A stretch of DNA of 64,000 nt from an uncultured Rhodospirillales bacterium (GTDB lineage Bacteria; Pseudomonadota; Alphaproteobacteria; Acetobacterales; Acetobacteraceae). This document shows, piece by piece, positions 13,056-23,153 of this stretch (position 1 is its first letter; each line of letters starts with the position of its first letter). The translations under genes were made by a program, and so were the position numbers. The DNA is taken from positions 1 to 64,000 of the forward strand of contig CAIYCW010000154.1 in assembly GCA_903924855.1 (NCBI GenBank), written 5' to 3'. A model generated the notes under the pieces. The model worked only from the letters and a program-made list of their open reading frames with translations, had not been told where the DNA came from and searched no databases.

Positions 13056-15362
13056 TCAGAACCGCATGCGCACCGCGGCACTGAGCACATGCACCGACTC
13101 GTTGGGGTTCATCGTCCCCGGCACGAAGGCGTTGGCGTATTGCGTGGCCCCGGTGCCATACATGAAGTCCTTGTAGTTGAAGCGCTCGAACGTGTAGCCG
13201 ACCAGAAGCGTGGTCTGCGCGCTGATCGTGTACTCGCCCTTCAGTGTGACGGTGATCAGCGTCGATTTCACATCCGGCAGCGGCGTGAAGTTGGCGGCAC
13301 CGATCGTGGCCCAGCTGGTCACACCGGCACCCACCACGGCCACACCCTCACCCAGGCCATAGGCGGTGTCACCCACCGACAGATTGCCATCGAGCGAGAC
13401 TTTCAGCTTCTCCGGAATGGCCTGCCAGTCCGCACTCACGCCCACCGTCTGCACCGAGTTGGTGTTGTTCAGCTGATAGGGGACGCTGTAGCCGGTGCTG
13501 CCCGAGCCGCTGGCCCACAGGGCCGATTCGTCAAAGTAGAGCTGCTGATAGGTGTAGAAGGCGTGCACCTGCAGATCCTTCGACACCTCCCATCCCAGAT
13601 CCGGGCCGGCCGAGATGTTGCGGTTGTTGCGCATGCCCAGCGCGCCGCTGGGATAGGTGTCACGCGAGAGCTTGCCGAACAGCGACACCGACACGCCATC
13701 GAACGGGGTGGCGTCGAGCATGCCCTTCACCTCGGCATGCTTGCGCGATGCCTCGTAGAACATGATCAGGTTGGTCGGTTCGTTGGCGGTGTCGGGCTTC
13801 GCCGTCGCGTTGGTGTAGTTCCAGGTTGCGTTGGCGTTATACGGACTGGCCCAGCGGTTCTGATAGGCGCCGCTCAGCGAGGCGTAGAGGCCATCGATCA
13901 CCGGGCCGCGGACCTTGAGCTGGATGGTGTTGCTCTGCACATCCCGCGCCGCCGAGTAGCTCCGGTACATGTCCTCCAGCGTGTCGGTCAGGGTCAGCTT
14001 GGTCTGGCCGTAGACGCGATAGCCCACCTCTCCCACCAATGTCTGATGGCGCAGGCTGACCGGCACGTTCGGATAGGTGTAGTAGGTCGAGGAACTGACC
14101 GGATATGAGGTCCAGATGTTCTTCGAGCTTTCATCGTCACGCGCGCTCAGCGTGTAGGCCACCCGCAGGTCGAGCTTGCTGATCGGGTGCGAGGTGAGTG
14201 CCACATTGCCGAAGATGTTTTCGGCAAAGCCCTGGAACTGTGCGCGCGGCAGCGTGGCCGAGGGGATGTTCGCGCTCCCGGTGCCGGCCATCAGGTCGGT
14301 GTTCTGCACATTCACGCCGTAGCCGGCGTTGACGTTCAGGCGGGAGTTGAACGGCAGGTTCATGCCGAAACTGCCCTTCACCTGGTAGGCCGAGTTGTTC
14401 GGCGGCAGCACATAGGTGGCGCCGGTGGTGGCCGCGGACGCCGGAGCCGCGATCCCCGAGAAGGCCCAGGGGTTCATCAGCTGAACACTGCCGTTGTTGT
14501 TGTCGAACTGGCTGTAGTTGAAGCTCAGCTGGCCCTGGTAGAGCCGGGTGTTGTAGGCGGCGGCGATCTCGAAGCGGTCGGTGTCATAGTTCACCGGCTG
14601 CAGGAAATACGCCATGCCGGAGGTGAAGGTGGTCGGCTTGGTGGCGCTGGAGGTGGCGAGGCTGGGCGCGCCGTAGAAGGTGAGCGATTGCTGCTGGTAG
14701 CCCTGTTTGTGCTCATGGCGCCAGCCGCTGGTGATCAGCCAATCACCCACCTGATACTTGCCGCCCGCGGTGTAGATGTCGCGCTGCATGTCCAGCTGAT
14801 AGGTGCCGACCGGCACGCGGCTGACGAGATAAGGCTGCCACAGTGGCAGCTTCACGCCACTGCCGGGGACGAACTGGCTGTAGCCCCAGGTGAGGCTGCC
14901 CGGCGCCAGGCCCGGCTGCAGGCTGGCATTGGTGTCGTAGATGCTGTGGTAGTTATGCCCGCCATCATAATAGATGCCGTCATAGCCGAAATATGCCCCC
15001 CAGATCCCCTGTTCGCCGGCCTTGGCGGAGATGCTGCGATCGGGCGTGCCGAGGCGATCGCCCTGCAGGTTGAAGTAATGTGTGCCACCTGAGTCCCAGG
15101 CGTCGCGGGTGCCGTAGCGGAAATCGCCCAGTGCCTGGAACCCCGGCGATTCGGTGCCGCTGAAGCGGTTGATGAAGTCCGACCGGCCGGAGCTGTACTG
15201 GCCACCGATGGTGATCCAGTTCTGGCTCGGCGGGGCTGCGACGGCCTCGGCCGGTTTGTCGTCGACGTCGAAATCATCGGCGGCGGCGGTCAGCGGCAGC
15301 AAGGGCAGCAGGCAGACGCTGGCTCCAAGCAAGGCCCTGAAAGAGAATATCCTGCTGAACAT
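13056..15362 (-). CDS. MtrB/PioB-family outer-membrane beta-barrel (decaheme-associated porin)
   Basis: 768 aa, signal peptide, repeated aromatic/polar beta-strand pattern, terminal strand ...NESVHVLSAAVRMRF; adjacent to decaheme MtrA-like gene. Confidence 0.85.
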   Translation of the reverse strand: MFSRIFSFRALLGASVCLLPLLPLTAAADDFDVDDKPAEAVAAPPSQNWITIGGQYSSGRSDFINRFSGTESPGFQALGDFRYGTRDAWDSGGTHYFNLQGDRLGTPDRSISAKAGEQGIWGAYFGYDGIYYDGGHNYHSIYDTNASLQPGLAPGSLTWGYSQFVPGSGVKLPLWQPYLVSRVPVGTYQLDMQRDIYTAGGKYQVGDWLITSGWRHEHKQGYQQQSLTFYGAPSLATSSATKPTTFTSGMAYFLQPVNYDTDRFEIAAAYNTRLYQGQLSFNYSQFDNNNGSVQLMNPWAFSGIAAPASAATTGATYVLPPNNSAYQVKGSFGMNLPFNSRLNVNAGYGVNVQNTDLMAGTGSANIPSATLPRAQFQGFAENIFGNVALTSHPISKLDLRVAYTLSARDDESSKNIWTSYPVSSSTYYTYPNVPVSLRHQTLVGEVGYRVYGQTKLTLTDTLEDMYRSYSAARDVQSNTIQLKVRGPVIDGLYASLSGAYQNRWASPYNANATWNYTNATAKPDTANEPTNLIMFYEASRKHAEVKGMLDATPFDGVSVSLFGKLSRDTYPSGALGMRNNRNISAGPDLGWEVSKDLQVHAFYTYQQLYFDESALWASGSGSTGYSVPYQLNNTNSVQTVGVSADWQAIPEKLKVSLDGNLSVGDTAYGLGEGVAVVGAGVTSWATIGAANFTPLPDVKSTLITVTLKGEYTISAQTTLLVGYTFERFNYKDFMYGTGATQYANAFVPGTMNPNESVHVLSAAVRMRF

Positions 15363-15380
15363 GTCAGTAACTCCCGGCCC

Positions 15381-16325
15381 TTAGCGGTTGAACCACGCGC
15401 CGTTGGGGCTGTTGGAACCATGGATCTGCGAGTGGCAGTTGACGCAGCCGCGACCGAGCATGCGGACGTTCTCCGCAATCTGACCTGGCAGCGTTGACCC
15501 GCTGAACGGGGTGATCTGGTGGCCGCTCTCCTGGTGGCATTCCTGGCAGAGATACGGCGGGCGCTCGACCAGCAGACGGGCCTGGCTGGAGCCATGCGGC
15601 GTGTGGCAGTTGAGGCAGCTTTCACGGACCGGCTCATGCTCGAACAGCAGAGGGCCGCGCTTTTCCATGTGACAGGTGTAGCAGACCTCGTTGACGGTGA
15701 ATTCCTTCAGCAGCTTCGGTCCCGGCGAGCCGTGCGGGTTGTGGCAGTCCGAGCAGACCACCTTGCCTTCGCGGATCGGGTGATGGGAAAATTTGAAGCT
15801 GTCCGCACGCTGTTCGGCGTGGCAGGTGAAGCATTTCTCGGGCTGGGTGTCCTTGACCAGCACCGGATCCTTTTCCTTGTGGATCGTGTGGCAGTCATTG
15901 CAGGCGATGTCGTTGGTGGCATGTTGGCTGCCCTGCCAGTTCATCCGCAGACCGTTCTCATGGCAGGTCAGGCATTGCGCGTTGCGCTCGGCCACCGGGG
16001 ATTTGTTGGGCCCCTTGAACAGCACGCTGGGTGAGTTCTGGCGGCTGCTGACATGGGCTGCGGAGGGGCCGTGGCAGCTTTCGCAGCCGTCCTGGCCGAA
16101 CGGGGTGTGGGCGTCGCCCTTGACCGCGTGCGGGGTCTGCAGGATCGGCGTCACCTTGGCATCGGTGCTGTGGCACTTCAGACAGGTCTCGGCGCCGCCG
16201 CCTGCGAAGGCGGCAGGCTGGGCCGCGGGAGCGGGGCCTGCTCCGGCGGCTGGTTGCGCCCCGGCCGGCATGCCGCCCAAGGCGAGCATCCCGGTGAAAA
16301 GCGCCATTGTCAGGATCGAGCGCAT
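15381..16325 (-). CDS. MtrA/DmsE-family decaheme c-type cytochrome
   Basis: Signal peptide plus ten CXXCH motifs: CLKCH, CESCH, CLTCH, CNDCH, CFTCH, CSDCH, CYTCH, CLNCH, CQECH, CVNCH in 314 aa. Confidence 0.92.
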   Translation of the reverse strand: MRSILTMALFTGMLALGGMPAGAQPAAGAGPAPAAQPAAFAGGGAETCLKCHSTDAKVTPILQTPHAVKGDAHTPFGQDGCESCHGPSAAHVSSRQNSPSVLFKGPNKSPVAERNAQCLTCHENGLRMNWQGSQHATNDIACNDCHTIHKEKDPVLVKDTQPEKCFTCHAEQRADSFKFSHHPIREGKVVCSDCHNPHGSPGPKLLKEFTVNEVCYTCHMEKRGPLLFEHEPVRESCLNCHTPHGSSQARLLVERPPYLCQECHQESGHQITPFSGSTLPGQIAENVRMLGRGCVNCHSQIHGSNSPNGAWFNR

Positions 16326-16381
16326 GGTCGTCTTACATCCTGTTGCTGGTTTGGGTCATGCGATGCCGGCTCGGGTCTGCG

Positions 16382-17347
16382 TCACTGCCGGGCGGCGACG
16401 AGGTCGGTCTTGCCGTCGAGGCTGAAGGAGCGCTCGTAGGAGACGTAGTGGAACCGTTTCGCTGTGTGTCCGGCGTGGAGCGCGAAGGCGAGGTAGTAGG
16501 TGTTGCCGGCGGAAATCGCGCTCAGCGGGGCGGACGCCGCCAGCGGGCGCTTCAGCGTGACCGACCAGACGCCGCCCTGCTGGGTGGCCTCGGCGGTGAC
16601 GACGTTGGTGGCGGCTGATTCACGCTTGTCGAAGACGATCTGCGTGTCGGTCTTGGGTGCCTGGCCCGGGTTGAGGGCGGCCTGCCAGTATTCCAGCTGG
16701 TAGCCGCTGCTCTTCAGCTCGGCGAGCTTGGCCGCATCGGCCAGCGTGTCGCCGCCGCCCTGGCGGGTGAGCTTGGCGCGGGTGCGCGGCAGATACATGG
16801 TGCGGGTGGCGGCGCCGGCGCTGGCCATGCCGCTCGAATCGTCGTGACAGGCCGCCCAGCAGCCGCCGCGATTGGCTTCCGGCACCTTGCCGTCGTTGAA
16901 CATCACCGTCACCCGCGTGTCGGCCGGGTTCTGGTTGGCGTTGGGCTGGTTGCCCGCGGCGAATTCGAGATGCACGTAAAGATCGGTCCCGTCATTGGCG
17001 ACCTTGACGGTGGCGTTGACCGCACCGGGCTTGCCGGCGATCGGGGTTGGCTCGATCGAGGGCTTTTCGCCGGTCTTGAAGACGCGCGGCGTGCCGGTGA
17101 CGATCTGCGGCCCCATGTCCTTTTCTTCGCCGATATGGCAGGTGGCGCAGTCCTTGCCCTTGCGGAAATCCTCGCCGCCGGACATCTCGGAGGGCGTCAG
17201 CGCCCATTCCCAGGAGGATTGGCCGGGGTAGAATAGCACCACCTCCTTGCCGGGCACGCTGGACCAGTTGATGCCTGCGGCATGGGCGCAGACGCTGCCG
17301 AGCAGGGCGGCGACGCCGAACGTGACGGATGTGCTGGAGAATTTCAT
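16382..17347 (-). CDS. Ethylbenzene-dehydrogenase-gamma-like periplasmic heme-binding protein with CATCH and CWAACH motifs
   Basis: MKFSSTSVTFGVAALLGSVCAHA signal peptide; KDCATCHIGEEKDMGP; GGCWAACHDDSSGM; YLAFALHAGHTAKRFHYVSYERSFSL. Confidence 0.72.
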   Translation of the reverse strand: MKFSSTSVTFGVAALLGSVCAHAAGINWSSVPGKEVVLFYPGQSSWEWALTPSEMSGGEDFRKGKDCATCHIGEEKDMGPQIVTGTPRVFKTGEKPSIEPTPIAGKPGAVNATVKVANDGTDLYVHLEFAAGNQPNANQNPADTRVTVMFNDGKVPEANRGGCWAACHDDSSGMASAGAATRTMYLPRTRAKLTRQGGGDTLADAAKLAELKSSGYQLEYWQAALNPGQAPKTDTQIVFDKRESAATNVVTAEATQQGGVWSVTLKRPLAASAPLSAISAGNTYYLAFALHAGHTAKRFHYVSYERSFSLDGKTDLVAARQ

Positions 17348-17374
17348 CTTTGGTCCCCTCATCTGAATGTTGGA

Positions 17375-17995
17375 TCAGTTGTCCATCTCGAAGTCGGTCG
17401 GCTCAGGCAAAGCCGCTTTGACTTCGAAGTTCTTGTGGGTGATGCCCTTGTGGCATTCGACGCAGTTCGCGTTGCTGGCGGCGGCGTCGGCGTGTTTGCT
17501 GCGCGCGGAGGGTTTCTGCTCGTCCGCCACCATCGAGCTGTAATCGTGGCAATGGCGGCATTCGCGGGCATTGCTGGCGGCGAACTTGGCCCAGACCTGC
17601 TTGGCCAGTTCTGGGCGTGCCTTGTCGAAATTTTCGACCTTGTTCATGCCCTGGAAGAAATACGCATACAGCTCACTGACCGTGGCCAGCTTCGCCTGTG
17701 CTTCAAGAACCCAGTTGTACTGGGGAACATGGCAGTCCGGGCAGCCGGCATGGGCGCCGAACTTGTTGGCGTAGTGCGAGCTTTTCTTGTATTCCGGGTA
17801 GACCGTATCGCCCATCACGTGGCAGCTGATGCAGAACTCGGTGCGGCTGGTGTATTCAACTGCCGTCACCCAGGTGGCGAACACGCCCCACCCCAGCACG
17901 ACACCCACCGTGCCAACCGCGAGATAGCGGCGGTTGGCGCGGACCCAGGCTGTCACGGCGGAGAAACGTGATGGCTGCGCAGCGTTCTGGCTCAT
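17375..17995 (-). CDS. NapC/NirT/CymA-family tetraheme quinol-oxidising cytochrome c
   Basis: N-terminal TM anchor YLAVGTVGVVLGWGVFATWV and four CXXCH motifs CISCH, CPDCH, CRHCH, CVECH. Confidence 0.9.
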   Translation of the reverse strand: MSQNAAQPSRFSAVTAWVRANRRYLAVGTVGVVLGWGVFATWVTAVEYTSRTEFCISCHVMGDTVYPEYKKSSHYANKFGAHAGCPDCHVPQYNWVLEAQAKLATVSELYAYFFQGMNKVENFDKARPELAKQVWAKFAASNARECRHCHDYSSMVADEQKPSARSKHADAAASNANCVECHKGITHKNFEVKAALPEPTDFEMDN

Positions 17996-18144
17996 GGTGA
18001 TCGCCCATTCCTGTCATCTGCGGTGGGCGGCCGTCTCAACGTTCCTCAATCAGTTTTCAGATTGCTGATCCGGACCGAAGCCATCGCAGCGTGACTATGT
18101 GAATTTCGTGACATGAACCCTAGGTCCAGCTTGCCGAAATTTAA

Positions 18145-18158
18145 TGGAACCAGATCAA
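18145..18158. promoter_or_regulatory. Weak FNR-like half-degenerate site upstream of napC-mtr operon
   Basis: TGGAACCAGATCAA versus TTGAT-N4-ATCAA (8/10 specified bases) in an AT-rich intergenic region. Confidence 0.25.
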
Positions 18159-18251: not shown

Positions 18252-19652
18252 TCAGTCGGCGGACAAGGCCATCTCTGAATTTGTTGCAAGGACTTCCGCC
18301 AAGCGGTGGATTCGTTGTTCGATCTGTGTCTCGGACAATGTGCCGAAGCCCAGCATCACTGCCTGTGTTCCGGCATGCGCCCTGCCCTGCTCGGCTGGCA
18401 GGGATTGCGCCTCCAGGCCGGATTGACGCGCCGCATGGGCGATGTAGCCGGATGGCCCGGCATCGGAGGGGGGGAACCAGGTCAGATGCAGGCCGCAATG
18501 CAGGCCCCAGATGGCCGGTTCGCCGCCGAAATGGCGTCGCAAGGCCGAGACCAGCGCGTCACGCCGTGCCGCATAGATCTTGGTCAGGCGATAGACGTGG
18601 CGGGCATATCCGCCGCCTGCCATCAACTCGGCCAGCGCCAGTTGTTCAAGACGGCTGGGCGTGCCGCCGATGACGTCACAGATCTCAGCACAGGCCGGGA
18701 TCAGCCGGCGTGGCAGCACGAGATAGGCCAGTTGCAGCCAGGGGCCGAGCGGGGCCGCGAAGGAGCCCAGCATGATGACACGATCATCTTGGTCCATTGC
18801 AATCAGCGGGGTGGCCTGGCGCGGCCCGTAATGCAGTTCACCGTGACTGTTGTCTTCCAGAACAACAGCGCCCCAGTGCCTTGCCCAATCCAGCAAGGCC
18901 GTGCGGCGCCCGGCCGCGAGCAGGGCCCCAAGGGGGCGCTGACTTTCGGGCGAGACATGCAGCAGCCCCACCGGACGCTGTGGCAGATGCTCCACCTGCA
19001 GCCCGTCCGCATCGACGCAAACATAGGCCAGATCGGCGGAGGCTTCCCTGTAGGCCGCCTCGGTCATCTTTTCGCAGGGCGATTCGAGCACCACCGCCTG
19101 TCCCGGCACCAAGACCAGGCGCGAGACCAGATGCAGCGCGTGCTGGCGGCTTTGGGTCAGCACGATCTGCTCGGGGCAGACGGCGATGTTGCGTGAGGCG
19201 GACAGCCAGCCCGCGATGGCCCGGCGCAGCGCGGGTTCGCCCGCCGGATGCACCGGGGCGGCACCCGAGCCGAGATCGTCCAGCGCCGCGCGCATCAGGG
19301 CACGCCAGCGCAGCAGCGGAAACAAGCCGGGGTCCGGGCGCCAGATCTTGGGCGCAACCACCGGCTGCGGCATTTCAGTGCCGGCCACAAGTGCCAGACC
19401 CGGCCGCAGCCTATGCGGCCCGACCACGAACGTGCCCTGCGCCGGCCGTGTTTCCAGGAACCCTTCGGCGATCAGACGGTCATAGGTCAGGATGACGGTG
19501 TTGCGCGACACGTCGAACGTCTCGGCCAGCATCCTTGTGGATGGCATGCGCGTGCCGGATTGCAGGCGACCGGAGCAGATGAGATCGCGCATCTGGTCGA
19601 ACAGCTGCTGCTGCAGGCATTGACCGCGATCAAGGGCGATCGAACTCAGCAT
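18252..19652 (-). CDS. MocR/PdxR-type GntR regulator with aminotransferase-like domain
   Basis: N-terminal GntR wHTH (LQSGTRMPSTRMLAETFDVSRNTVILTYDRLIAEGFLETRPAQGTFV) + fold-type I aminotransferase-like domain; normal GTFSK PLP-lysine motif reads GSFAA. Confidence 0.87.
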   Translation of the reverse strand: MLSSIALDRGQCLQQQLFDQMRDLICSGRLQSGTRMPSTRMLAETFDVSRNTVILTYDRLIAEGFLETRPAQGTFVVGPHRLRPGLALVAGTEMPQPVVAPKIWRPDPGLFPLLRWRALMRAALDDLGSGAAPVHPAGEPALRRAIAGWLSASRNIAVCPEQIVLTQSRQHALHLVSRLVLVPGQAVVLESPCEKMTEAAYREASADLAYVCVDADGLQVEHLPQRPVGLLHVSPESQRPLGALLAAGRRTALLDWARHWGAVVLEDNSHGELHYGPRQATPLIAMDQDDRVIMLGSFAAPLGPWLQLAYLVLPRRLIPACAEICDVIGGTPSRLEQLALAELMAGGGYARHVYRLTKIYAARRDALVSALRRHFGGEPAIWGLHCGLHLTWFPPSDAGPSGYIAHAARQSGLEAQSLPAEQGRAHAGTQAVMLGFGTLSETQIEQRIHRLAEVLATNSEMALSAD

Positions 19653-19788: not shown

Positions 19789-19804
19789 ATTGATCGAGGT
19801 CAAT
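19789..19804. promoter_or_regulatory. FNR/FnrL-type box upstream of hemA
   Basis: CATTGATCGAGGTCAATG context; core TTGATCGAGGTCAA vs TTGAT-N4-ATCAA (9/10), perfectly symmetric outer CATTGA...TCAATG; 98 nt before hemA ATG. Confidence 0.65.
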
Positions 19805-19901
19805 GTGGGATTGGCGCCGACACTCAATTCTGTCTGCGGCTGCGGGGGACCGGATGCGGTGCTGCTTCAGCCATGTCATGCACAGACAGGGCGATCACGA
19901 C

Positions 19902-21119
19902 ATGTCCGCGTTCGAGACATTCTGCCAGACAGCGATCGACGACATCCGCGCCCAGGGCCGGTATCGGGAGTTCACGCCGCTGCGCAAACAGGCGCGGCGT
20001 TTCCCGTATTACGAGGGAACAAACGGCCGCGAGGTGCTGGTGTGGTCGGCCAACGACTATCTGGCGATGGGCGGCCATGAGGCGGTGATCGAGGCGGCCT
20101 GCGAGACGGCGCGTCAGATGGGGGCGGGGGCGGGTGGCACGCGCAACATCTCCGGCACCTCGCCCGCCCATGACGCGCTGGAGGCGGAGCTTGCCCACCT
20201 GCACGGCAAGCCCGCAGCCCTGCTGTTCACCTCGGGCTTCGTCTCCAACCAGGCGGCTTTGTCCACCATTCTGGCGAGCCGGCCGGCCGGGCGGGAGCAT
20301 CTGTGGCAGGTGTTCTCCGATGAGAAGAACCATGCCTCGATGATCGCCGGGCTGAAATCGGTGCCGGCGCATGTGCATATCTTCCGCCACAACGATCTGG
20401 CGCATCTGGAGCAGCTGCTGGAAGCCGCCCCGCCTGAGGCGCCGCGGCTGATCGCGTTCGAGAGCGTCTATTCGATGGACGCCGATATCGCGCCGCTGGA
20501 AGCGATCTGCGATCTGGCCGAGCGGTTCGGGGCGATGACCTATCTCGATGAGGTGCATGCGGTGGGCATGTACGGCCGCACCGGCGGGGGTGTGTCGGAG
20601 CGCGACGGGGTGGCGCACCGGATCGACATCATCGAGGGCACGCTGGCCAAGGCGTTTGGCTGCCATGGCGGCTACATCACCGGGCAGAGCGTGGTGGTGG
20701 ATTACATACGATGCGTCGCACCGGGCTTCATCTTCACCACCTCGCTGCCGCCCTCCACCGCGGCGGCGGCGCTGGCCAGCGTGCGCCATGTGCGCGGCGA
20801 TCATGACCGCCGGGCGAGGCTGTTCGAACGGGCGGAGACGCTGAAGCGCCGCTTCGATGCGGCGGGGCTGCCGCGCATCGCCTCTGAAAGCCATATCGTG
20901 CCGCTGCATATCGGCGAGGCGGTGCTGTGCCGGGAGGTCAGCCAGCGGCTGCTGGAGGAGTTCGGCATGTATGCCACGCCGATCAACTACCCGACGGTGC
21001 CGCGCGGCCAGGAGCGGCTGCGCTTCACGCCGTCACCAGCCCATACCGACGAGATGATGGACGCCCTGGTGGCCGCCCTGGTGCAGATCCTGGCACCGGC
21101 AAAGCGCCAGGCTGCCTGA
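19902..21119 (+). CDS. hemA: 5-aminolevulinate synthase
   Basis: [37 protein letters not shown]...[11 protein letters not shown]...[25 protein letters not shown]...[11 protein letters not shown]...[15 protein letters not shown]. Confidence 0.95.
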
Positions 21120-21167: not shown

Positions 21168-23153
21168 ATGATCACCGAATTCGGTCATTTCGCGCTGATT
21201 CTGGCGCTGTGCGTCGCCATCGTGCAATCGAGCGTGCCGCTGATCGGGGCCGCGCGCGGGCGTGCCGCCTGGATGGAGGTGGGGCGCTCGGCGGCGCTGG
21301 TGCAGTTCCTGCTGGTGGCGGTTGCGATGGGGGTGCTGATGCACGCCTATATCGTGTCTGATTTCAGCGTGATCAACGTGGCGCAGAACAGCCACACCGA
21401 CAAACCGCTGTTCTACAAGATCACCGGTGTCTGGGGGAACCATGAGGGCTCGATGCTGCTCTGGGCCTTCATGCTTGCCTTGTGCAGTGCGGCGGTGGCG
21501 GCGTTTTCCGGCAATCTGCCGGCCGATCTGCGCGCGCGCGTGCTGGCGGTGCAGGGCATGATCGCGGTGGGGTTCCTGGCCTTCATCCTGGCCACCTCCA
21601 ACCCGTTCCTGCGCACCTGGCCGGTGCCGTCCAACGGCAACGGTCTGAACCCGGTGCTACAGGACCCGGGTCTCGCCTTCCATCCGCCGTTTCTCTATCT
21701 CGGCTATGTCGGCTTCTCGGTGGCGTTCTCGTTTTCGGTGGCGGCACTGATCGAGGGGCGGGTGGATGCCGCCTGGGGGCGCTGGGTGCGGCCCTGGTCG
21801 TTGGCCTCGTGGTGCGCGCTAACGGTGGGCATCGCACTGGGCTCGTGGTGGGCGTACTACACGCTGGGCTGGGGCGGCTGGTGGTTCTGGGATCCGGTGG
21901 AGAACGCCTCGCTGATGCCGTGGATCGTGGGCACCGCGCTCATCCACTCCGCCATCGTGGTCGAACGGCGTGAGACGCTGAAGAGCTGGACCATCCTGCT
22001 GGCCATCGTCACCTTCTCGCTGTCGCTGGTCGGCACCTTCCTGGTGCGCTCGGGCGTGCTGAGTTCGGTGCATGCGTTTGCCGTCGATCCGCGGCGCGGC
22101 GCGTTCATCCTGGGGCTGCTGGTGATCGCGATCGGCGGATCGCTGTCGCTGTACGCGGCGCGGGCGCCGGCGCTGAAGGGCGGCGGCATCTTCGCGCCGA
22201 TCTCGCGTGAGGGCGCGCTGCTGCTCAACAACGTGCTGCTGGCCACCTGTGCCGCCACGGTGTTCCTGGGCACGCTGTATCCGCTGTTCCTGGATGCGAT
22301 CCACGGGCCGAAGATCTCGGTGGGCGCGCCGTTCTTCAACCAGACCTTCGTGCCGCTGATGGTGCCGGTGCTGGTGGCGATGGCGGTGGGCCCGATGCTG
22401 GCCTGGAAGCGTGGCGATCTGGGGGCCGCGATGCAGCGCCTGTGGATGGCGTTCGCGGCTGCTGCCGTGGTGGTGCTGGGGATGTTCTACGTCACCACCG
22501 GGGCCCCGGTGCTGGCGATCCTGGGTCTGGGCCTGGGGGTGTGGACTGCCTGCGGCGTGCTGACCGAATGGGCGGACCGGGTGCGCCTGTTCCGCGTTCC
22601 GCTGCGCCAGAGCTGGCATCGGGCTGTGCATCTGCCGCGCGCCGCCTTTGGCATGACGCTGGGCCATCTTGGCATCGCCATCACGGTGATCGGCATCTCG
22701 GCGCAGCCGTTCCAGCAGGAATTCCTCGGCTATATGAAGCTGGGCGATCAGGCCGCACTTGCCGGATATCAGCTGCGTCTGGACAAGGTGGAGCGGGTGC
22801 AGGGCCCCAATTTCGTGGCCGATGAGGCGACGATCCTGGTGACCAGGGGCACGCAGACCGTCGCCGTGCAGCACCCGCAGCGGCGCTATTTCCAGCTGCA
22901 GGACCAGACCACCGGCGTCACCTCGATCCGCTCGGGGCTCGATGCCGATCTGTATCTGGCGATCGGCGATCCGAACGAGGACGGCGCATGGACGATCCGG
23001 GCCTATTGGAAGCCGATTGTGTCCTGGATCTGGCTCGGCGGGCTGGTGATGGCGGCGGGTGGGGCGGTCAGCCTGTCCGATCGGCGTTGGCGGGTGGGCG
23101 TGGCCCATAAGCTTAGGCGCCCGCGCGGCCTGCAGATCGCGGCGGGGGAGTAG
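21168..23153 (+). CDS. ccmF: Heme lyase CcmF (cytochrome c biogenesis)
   Basis: WGNHEGSMLLWAF; tryptophan-rich WWD motif LGWGGWWFWDPVENASLMPWIVG. Confidence 0.95.
   Translation: MITEFGHFALILALCVAIVQSSVPLIGAARGRAAWMEVGRSAALVQFLLVAVAMGVLMHAYIVSDFSVINVAQNSHTDKPLFYKITGVWGNHEGSMLLWAFMLALCSAAVAAFSGNLPADLRARVLAVQGMIAVGFLAFILATSNPFLRTWPVPSNGNGLNPVLQDPGLAFHPPFLYLGYVGFSVAFSFSVAALIEGRVDAAWGRWVRPWSLASWCALTVGIALGSWWAYYTLGWGGWWFWDPVENASLMPWIVGTALIHSAIVVERRETLKSWTILLAIVTFSLSLVGTFLVRSGVLSSVHAFAVDPRRGAFILGLLVIAIGGSLSLYAARAPALKGGGIFAPISREGALLLNNVLLATCAATVFLGTLYPLFLDAIHGPKISVGAPFFNQTFVPLMVPVLVAMAVGPMLAWKRGDLGAAMQRLWMAFAAAAVVVLGMFYVTTGAPVLAILGLGLGVWTACGVLTEWADRVRLFRVPLRQSWHRAVHLPRAAFGMTLGHLGIAITVIGISAQPFQQEFLGYMKLGDQAALAGYQLRLDKVERVQGPNFVADEATILVTRGTQTVAVQHPQRRYFQLQDQTTGVTSIRSGLDADLYLAIGDPNEDGAWTIRAYWKPIVSWIWLGGLVMAAGGAVSLSDRRWRVGVAHKLRRPRGLQIAAGE

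Follow-up and report, generated by a model that had tools for sequence, protein, structure and literature searches.

A probable MtrC-less electron conduit joining a NapC-NapO/PcrO-type quinol module to MtrAB in uncultured Acetobacteraceae

Introduction

Conduits of the MtrAB type have been described in several arrangements. In Shewanella, CymA-MtrCAB unites a NapC-family donor with MtrA lodged in the MtrB barrel, MtrC/OmcA and the carriers CctA and FccA. MtoAB-CymA-MtoD and PioABC are conduits of this type without MtrC, whose periplasmic partners are the monoheme MtoD and the high-potential iron-sulphur protein (HiPIP) PioC; PioA carries a long N-terminal extension. In Azospira suillum, the diheme cytochromes NapO and PcrO, homologous to the gamma subunit of ethylbenzene dehydrogenase (EBDH), are paired with the tetraheme NapC-family quinol dehydrogenases NapC and PcrQ and feed periplasmic nitrate and perchlorate reductases; their carrier role is genetic, a napO pcrO double mutant showing no growth on nitrate or perchlorate (PMC5845722, 2018). 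Halieaceae Group 6 mtrCAB clusters encode an inner-membrane tetraheme cytochrome and an 'mtrA-DOMON' protein (PMC8805035, 2022), and a Ferrovaceae cluster comprises NapC, DmsE, MtrB and a c-type cytochrome, with no MtrC, PioC or DmsAB nearby (PMC13390463, 2026). Here we analyse a four-gene cassette in a 64,000-nucleotide stretch (the window; contig CAIYCW010000154.1) of an uncultured Rhodospirillales bacterium of the Acetobacteraceae, a scarcely studied relation of the acetic-acid bacteria, represented by a metagenome-assembled genome (MAG) of 3.9 Mb that is 84.5% complete. It likely encodes an MtrC-less trans-envelope conduit for extracellular respiration, in which a NapC-NapO/PcrO-type quinol module is joined to MtrAB under the control of a MocR-type regulator.

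The cassette differs from each of these systems. It resembles the Azospira pairs in its tetraheme NapC-family protein and its diheme EBDH-gamma homolog, whereas it adjoins MtrAB and not a reductase. It shares with the Halieaceae clusters the succession of a NapC-type tetraheme, an EB_dh/DOMON domain, MtrA and MtrB, but its EB_dh protein stands alone, while theirs is fused to a nonaheme MtrA-like protein and accompanied by MtrC. A diheme EB_dh protein, encoded inside the cluster, is found in place of the Shewanella carriers, of MtoD and of PioC. The Ferrovaceae set is similar; the description consulted does not state that its extra c-type cytochrome is an EB_dh protein. An earlier note on this DNA had spoken of an under-described variant of extracellular electron transfer. 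The Halieaceae and Ferrovaceae relatives leave it less undescribed than supposed: its components were known before, and two related clusters have already appeared in print. No stand-alone MtrC-less NapC-NapO-like-MtrAB cassette in Acetobacteraceae, nor the operator and ligand change described below, was found in the literature, a search that left out most subscription journals.

Gene content and structure of the cassette

The cassette consists of the following genes:

17375..17995, minus strand: NapC/NirT-family tetraheme cytochrome, presumed quinol dehydrogenase (PF03264, 177 bits)
16382..17362, minus strand: NapO/PcrO-like diheme cytochrome c of the EB_dh/DOMON fold, presumed to be a carrier in the periplasm (PF09459, 105 bits)
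15381..16325, minus strand: MtrA/DmsE-family decaheme cytochrome (TIGR03508, 309 bits, cut-off 192)
13056..15362, minus strand: MtrB/PioB-family outer-membrane barrel (PF11854, 321 bits, cut-off 23; TIGR03509, 314.5 bits, cut-off 240)

The order of the four open reading frames (ORFs), their positions and the gaps of under 60 bp are as the earlier note had them, the gaps measuring 12, 56 and 18 bp. All four proteins score well over the Pfam cut-offs, and MtrA and MtrB are also over those of the NCBIfam families, which bears out their assignment to MtrA/DmsE and MtrB/PioB. The window's closest named relatives are Acetobacteraceae/Rhodospirillales MAGs.

NapC, the sole NapC detected in the window genome, has one N-terminal membrane helix and four CXXCH motifs (aa 55, 85, 146 and 178), and stays under the cut-off of the narrower model TIGR02161 (163 vs 311 bits). 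MtrA, of 314 aa, contains ten CXXCH and aligns over 273 residues, at 259 bits, with MtrA as seen in the solved structure of the Mtr complex (6R2Q_A). In 5,000 shuffled versions of each protein, CXXCH occurred at most once for NapC and twice for MtrA. The molecule field of 6R2Q chain A, as displayed by the search tool, reads 'Cystathionine beta-synthase', apparently a labelling error.

The model of MtrB (mean predicted local distance difference test, pLDDT, 75.7) has 26 long strands, counted from the listed strands, the number found in solved MtrB. Its best match in the PDB, far above the rest, is 6R2Q_B (template modelling score 0.87 on the target length, E 1.3e-33). By strand count, the barrel would be large enough for MtrA, which may form a complex with it. 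The proposal that NapC/CymA, MtrA and MtrB make up a quinol-to-outer-membrane conduit is thus well supported by the families and the barrel fold. In one other genome, the MtrB gene (G284:C62:54612-56797) is split by a stop and a frame change, either an assembly error or a decaying gene.

The OmcA/MtrC model TIGR03507 found no match in 10 genomes, eight of them carriers of the cassette and the window genome, at 84.5% completeness, included, and no MtrC-family gene occurs in the flanks of the Acetobacteraceae loci. The absence of MtrC, DmsAB and PioC from the locus, already pointed out in the earlier note, agrees with our survey, in which no such gene was recognised there. The identified flanking genes (SDR, ABC transporter, MocR, 5-aminolevulinate synthase and CcmF) include neither DmsAB nor another molybdoenzyme. 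No PioC HiPIP was seen among the identified neighbouring genes, no HiPIP model having been run over the genome. A CXXCH scan near the cassette revealed no convincing ORF for an MtoD-type monoheme, for which no MtoD model was run, and no further convincing c-type cytochrome gene.

The EB_dh protein and its place in the chain

The EB_dh protein carries two heme sites, as had been claimed, but just one of them, C72-C75-H76, is a CXXCH; the second, C168-x3-C172-H173, is the less usual CX3CH. Both motifs are invariant among 85 aligned homologs. The N-terminus is hydrophobic and without a lipobox. The reading of the protein as a presumably soluble periplasmic carrier is supported. The structural model (mean pLDDT 80) matches in fold the EBDH gamma subunit 2IVF_C and a nitrite oxidoreductase subunit, 7B04_C. 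The scores against the EBDH gamma model NF042980 (21.4 bits, cut-off 400) and against the type II dimethyl sulphoxide (DMSO) reductase gamma model TIGR03477 (25.6 bits, cut-off 170) rule out a true EBDH gamma subunit. Since the former score is so far under the cut-off of the equivalog model, the label 'EBDH-like' is right for the fold and not for the function: with PF09459, invariant CXXCH and CX3CH and an adjacent NapC, the protein belongs with the diheme partners of NapC/NirT such as NapO and PcrO. The same two scores make a gamma-subunit role very improbable, whether in a molybdenum dehydrogenase or in a DMSO-reductase-type enzyme with its other subunits encoded elsewhere, in which case the place in the cassette would be incidental. 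The fold and the weak sequence relation to 2IVF_C speak for such a subunit, but the genome distribution of EB_dh in the order matches that of MtrB, and the flanking genes that could be identified hold no molybdoenzyme.

The position of the protein in the chain is suggested by its relatives. In a sample of genomes from the Dechloromonas area, an EB_dh protein with CXXCH and CX3CH is usually preceded by NapC/NirT, as separate genes; one locus that was checked reads nirS-nirT-EB_dh-nirF. Single NirT::EB_dh fusion proteins are encoded beside a cytochrome cd1 gene on plasmids of Azospirillum brasilense and Ruegeria (L172 5269-6891 and L173 5203-6987, annotated merely as 'NapC/NirT family cytochrome c'). 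In the Halieaceae-type mtrCAB clusters, the gene after NapC and before MtrA encodes a nonaheme MtrA-like::EB_dh fusion; next after MtrB comes a true MtrC, which exceeded the TIGR03507 cut-off in each of the six tested. From its published description, we read the 'mtrA-DOMON' as this fusion. Because the two kinds of fusion bracket it, and by analogy with NapO/PcrO, the EB_dh protein most likely has NapC on one side of it in the chain and MtrA on the other.

This placement bears on the earlier suggestion that the protein stands where other systems have MtrC, DmsAB or PioC, which needs revision: the fused Halieaceae relatives have the same position in clusters that also encode a true MtrC. Export of the EB_dh protein, which would then replace MtrC or DmsAB outside the cell, is improbable for the same reason. 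Although it is the sole extra gene beside NapC, MtrA and MtrB, and MtrC was not found, in the NirT::EB_dh fusions this domain is held on the side of the inner membrane, and a lipobox is lacking; the MtrC substitute was rejected on account of the fused relatives that coexist with MtrC.

In a tree of EB_dh proteins, made by a quick method, with long branches and without the NapO/PcrO sequences themselves, a reductase-linked group of 41 rows is split by a 98* branch from a group holding all the MtrAB-linked proteins, together with the fusions and a few rows without linked MtrAB. The MtrAB-linked proteins thus form, by this tree, a group related to the reductase-linked clade yet separate from it, which fits a single early joining of the module to MtrAB followed by losses. 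The MtrA tree is compatible with it, its deep part being weakly supported.

One position distinguishes the proteins of the Acetobacteraceae clade. Twelve residues ahead of the first heme site, residue 60 is Met in all 21 of them, and outside the clade it is His in 63 of 64 proteins and Lys in the remaining one. Such an exchange of His and Met is what one typically sees at a distal heme ligand, where Met would raise the potential. Our guess is that Met60 is an axial heme ligand of the EB_dh protein, and it would then raise the potential of that heme.

Taking into account that: (i) the NapC-NapO/PcrO-type module is common to nitrate, perchlorate and nitrite respiration; (ii) here it is attached to MtrAB, which would replace the periplasmic reductase, and (iii) no MtrC was detected, we propose the following route. 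Membrane-anchored NapC would oxidize quinol, and the soluble diheme EB_dh cytochrome would take the electrons of NapC across the periplasm to MtrA. MtrA, threaded in the MtrB barrel, would pass the electrons to the cell surface, where its outer end, or another partner, would reduce the acceptor. Fe(III) in soluble or colloidal form, or else humic quinones, would probably serve as this acceptor.

A MocR regulator and its candidate operator

The regulatory elements upstream of the cassette are:

18252..19652, minus strand: MocR-family regulator (GntR and aminotransferase domains), PdxR-like, candidate regulator of the cassette (PF00392 and PF00155; NF052282, 324 bits, cut-off 320)
18120..18153, minus strand: direct repeat CTGGTTCCAT-n14-CTGGACCTAG, a candidate operator for MocR lying 125 bp ahead of napC (phylogenetic footprint)

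The MocR gene is adjacent to the cassette at most Acetobacteraceae loci. A repeat search of the window's own intergenic region gave no inverted or direct repeats, and the operator is visible by comparison between loci alone, as a shared block CTGGTnnCATTAAATT...CTGGnCCTA. A matrix built from four sites found further matches upstream of cassette genes in loci not used for building it; when each site was left out in turn, it scored 32 to 40, against about 13 or less at the next-best place in its own source. A loose pattern had 13 matches in 1.79 Mb of both-strand sequence, all upstream of napC or EB_dh. Two of these lie in L028, where the MocR gene separates napC from EB_dh-mtrAB, and one in a Magnetospirillum locus (L037). 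As the pattern was shaped on these loci, it is its specificity and the double match in L028 that are informative. The operator is conserved ahead of the cassette in the window and in the loci L020-L037, with no match elsewhere in the loci searched. An FNR-type box upstream of napC was discarded, being not conserved (a single match in the window, with two mismatches, and a single one in L035).

Among MocR proteins, TauR recognises CTGGACYTAA boxes in direct repeat (PMC5320631), and the second box of the window, CTGGACCTAG, equals that box in nine of ten positions. By this analogy, the linked MocR protein probably reads the direct-repeat operator and would thereby control the cassette.

Distribution of the cassette

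A search of the genome collection gave 57 EB_dh loci. The neighbourhood survey proposed in the earlier note shows that the gene order recurs in dozens of genomes. The order NapC-EB_dh-MtrA-MtrB, or a version lacking NapC, is found in most alphaproteobacterial loci and in Methyloprofundus. In the latter it comes without MocR, whereas in many Acetobacteraceae/Rhodospirillales loci MocR is linked. NapC-EB_dh-MtrA is present on short contigs of Lysobacterales and Alcanivorax. Among MAGs of Acetobacteraceae/Rhodospirillales the cassette is conserved; in Gammaproteobacteria it is found more rarely. Of 299 genomes of the order, eight have the close EB_dh homolog, and precisely these eight also have an MtrB over the cut-off; all are of one family. 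The chance of a random coincidence (7e-16) is descriptive only, because the genomes are related. G133, not among the eight, has a fragment of MtrB, scoring under the cut-off, at the end of a contig. Among 385 sampled Alphaproteobacteria, five were MtrA-positive: two of this type, including the window's, two Pio-like and one different. At tblastn level no plasmid record carries the cassette, and plasmid mobility was dropped; both plasmid EB_dh matches inspected were nirS-linked.

Several observations weigh against the proposed respiratory conduit. In cultured organisms, the MtrC-less conduits Pio and Mto are associated with the oxidation of Fe(II). NapC is missing from some loci, and the carrier G280 has no NapC match genome-wide. 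Three Rhodopila genomes have NapC-EB_dh and no MtrB match genome-wide, showing that the conduit is no prerequisite for the module; there, the module either serves another acceptor or MtrAB has been lost. In a Telmatospirillum MAG, a gene for an EB_dh diheme protein lies directly downstream of that for a pyrroloquinoline quinone (PQQ) alcohol dehydrogenase (L043 7085-9951) and its product may accept electrons from this enzyme; therefore the donor or acceptor of EB_dh can differ.

In the three Rhodopila MAGs (L029, L030 and L031), MocR is adjacent upstream of the NapC-EB_dh pair in two. The genome of L043 contains several MtrB genes. In another Telmatospirillum MAG, an ORF of 381 aa with seven CXXCH (L039 5650-6792) is found upstream of a NapC-less EB_dh-MtrA-MtrB cluster; its product is possibly an alternative donor.

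Direction of electron flow

The same wire could run inward, with MtrAB drawing electrons from Fe(II) or reduced humics outside the cell and passing them to EB_dh in the periplasm, from where NapC or another route would lead to the quinone pool, in a lithotrophy like that of Mto and Pio. We consider this rather unlikely as an account of the cassette. Inward flow is favoured by the absence of MtrC, as in PioAB and MtoAB, and by the clade-wide Met60, which would give the heme a higher potential if it serves as axial ligand; moreover, the MtrC-less Ferrovaceae cluster is interpreted as Mto-like (PMC13390463). A true RuBisCO is encoded by four of 20 carriers, among them G280, the carrier without a NapC match. 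However, the other 16 have none, the window genome being 84.5% complete, and therefore the carriers do not have autotrophic oxidation of Fe(II) in common; the link of the cassette to autotrophy was dropped. In addition, MtrA lacks the long N-terminal part of the Pio type (314 aa, against about 450 aa in the Pio-like L162/L163), the surroundings of the cassette showed no further convincing gene for a c-type cytochrome, and the NapC-NapO-type modules studied to date feed reductases. The distribution of RuBisCO and these known partners of the module are the reasons why outward flow is, on balance, preferred.

For the outward conduit, humic matter and Fe(III) are suggested as acceptors by the habitats. 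The MAG names (Alinen, Umea, Kiruna, palsa) presumably stand for humic waters and peat.

Neighbouring genes

Beyond the MocR gene, the cassette neighbours genes for heme supply and cytochrome maturation:

19803..21119, plus strand: divergently oriented 5-aminolevulinate synthase, for heme supply (TIGR01821, 549 bits, over cut-off)
21168..23153, plus strand: CcmF heme lyase (TIGR00353, 651 bits)

Downstream of CcmF follow a thioredoxin-like gene and a CcmH/CycH-TPR gene, forming with it a cytochrome c maturation cluster beside the cassette. The linkage to 5-aminolevulinate synthase is retained in several close relatives. Two CcmF genes were detected in the window genome (G000:C154:22110-23084, window 22110-23084, and G000:C15:45750-46712), against one in the other carriers examined; the copy on C15 scores like the CcmF of non-carrier congeners. 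A CcmF dedicated to the CX3CH heme is unsupported, given the single CcmF of most carriers.

Implications

Beyond the conduit itself, a wider picture may be offered tentatively, as one more open to doubt. The cassette would represent a distinct, MtrC-free branch of extracellular respiration, in which NapC-EB_dh, sharing its descent with the denitrification module, became a dedicated bridge from quinol to MtrAB within a MocR regulon of its own, across uncultured Acetobacteraceae and related bacteria living in humic waters and peat. Within the clade, the switch from His to Met would have raised the potential of one heme, tuning the chain to high-potential acceptors or to running in reverse.

If the proposal is true, parts of denitrification would have furnished the inner half of a pathway for extracellular electrons, and NapC, EB_dh and MtrA, in this succession, would provide a testable order for a step that varies between lineages. 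The MtrAB-linked EB_dh protein would serve as a one-gene marker, and the operator as a motif, for spotting the pathway in metagenomes. Uncultured Acetobacteraceae, which by their MAG names presumably come from boreal lakes, ponds and permafrost peat, would then join the candidates for iron and humic respiration.

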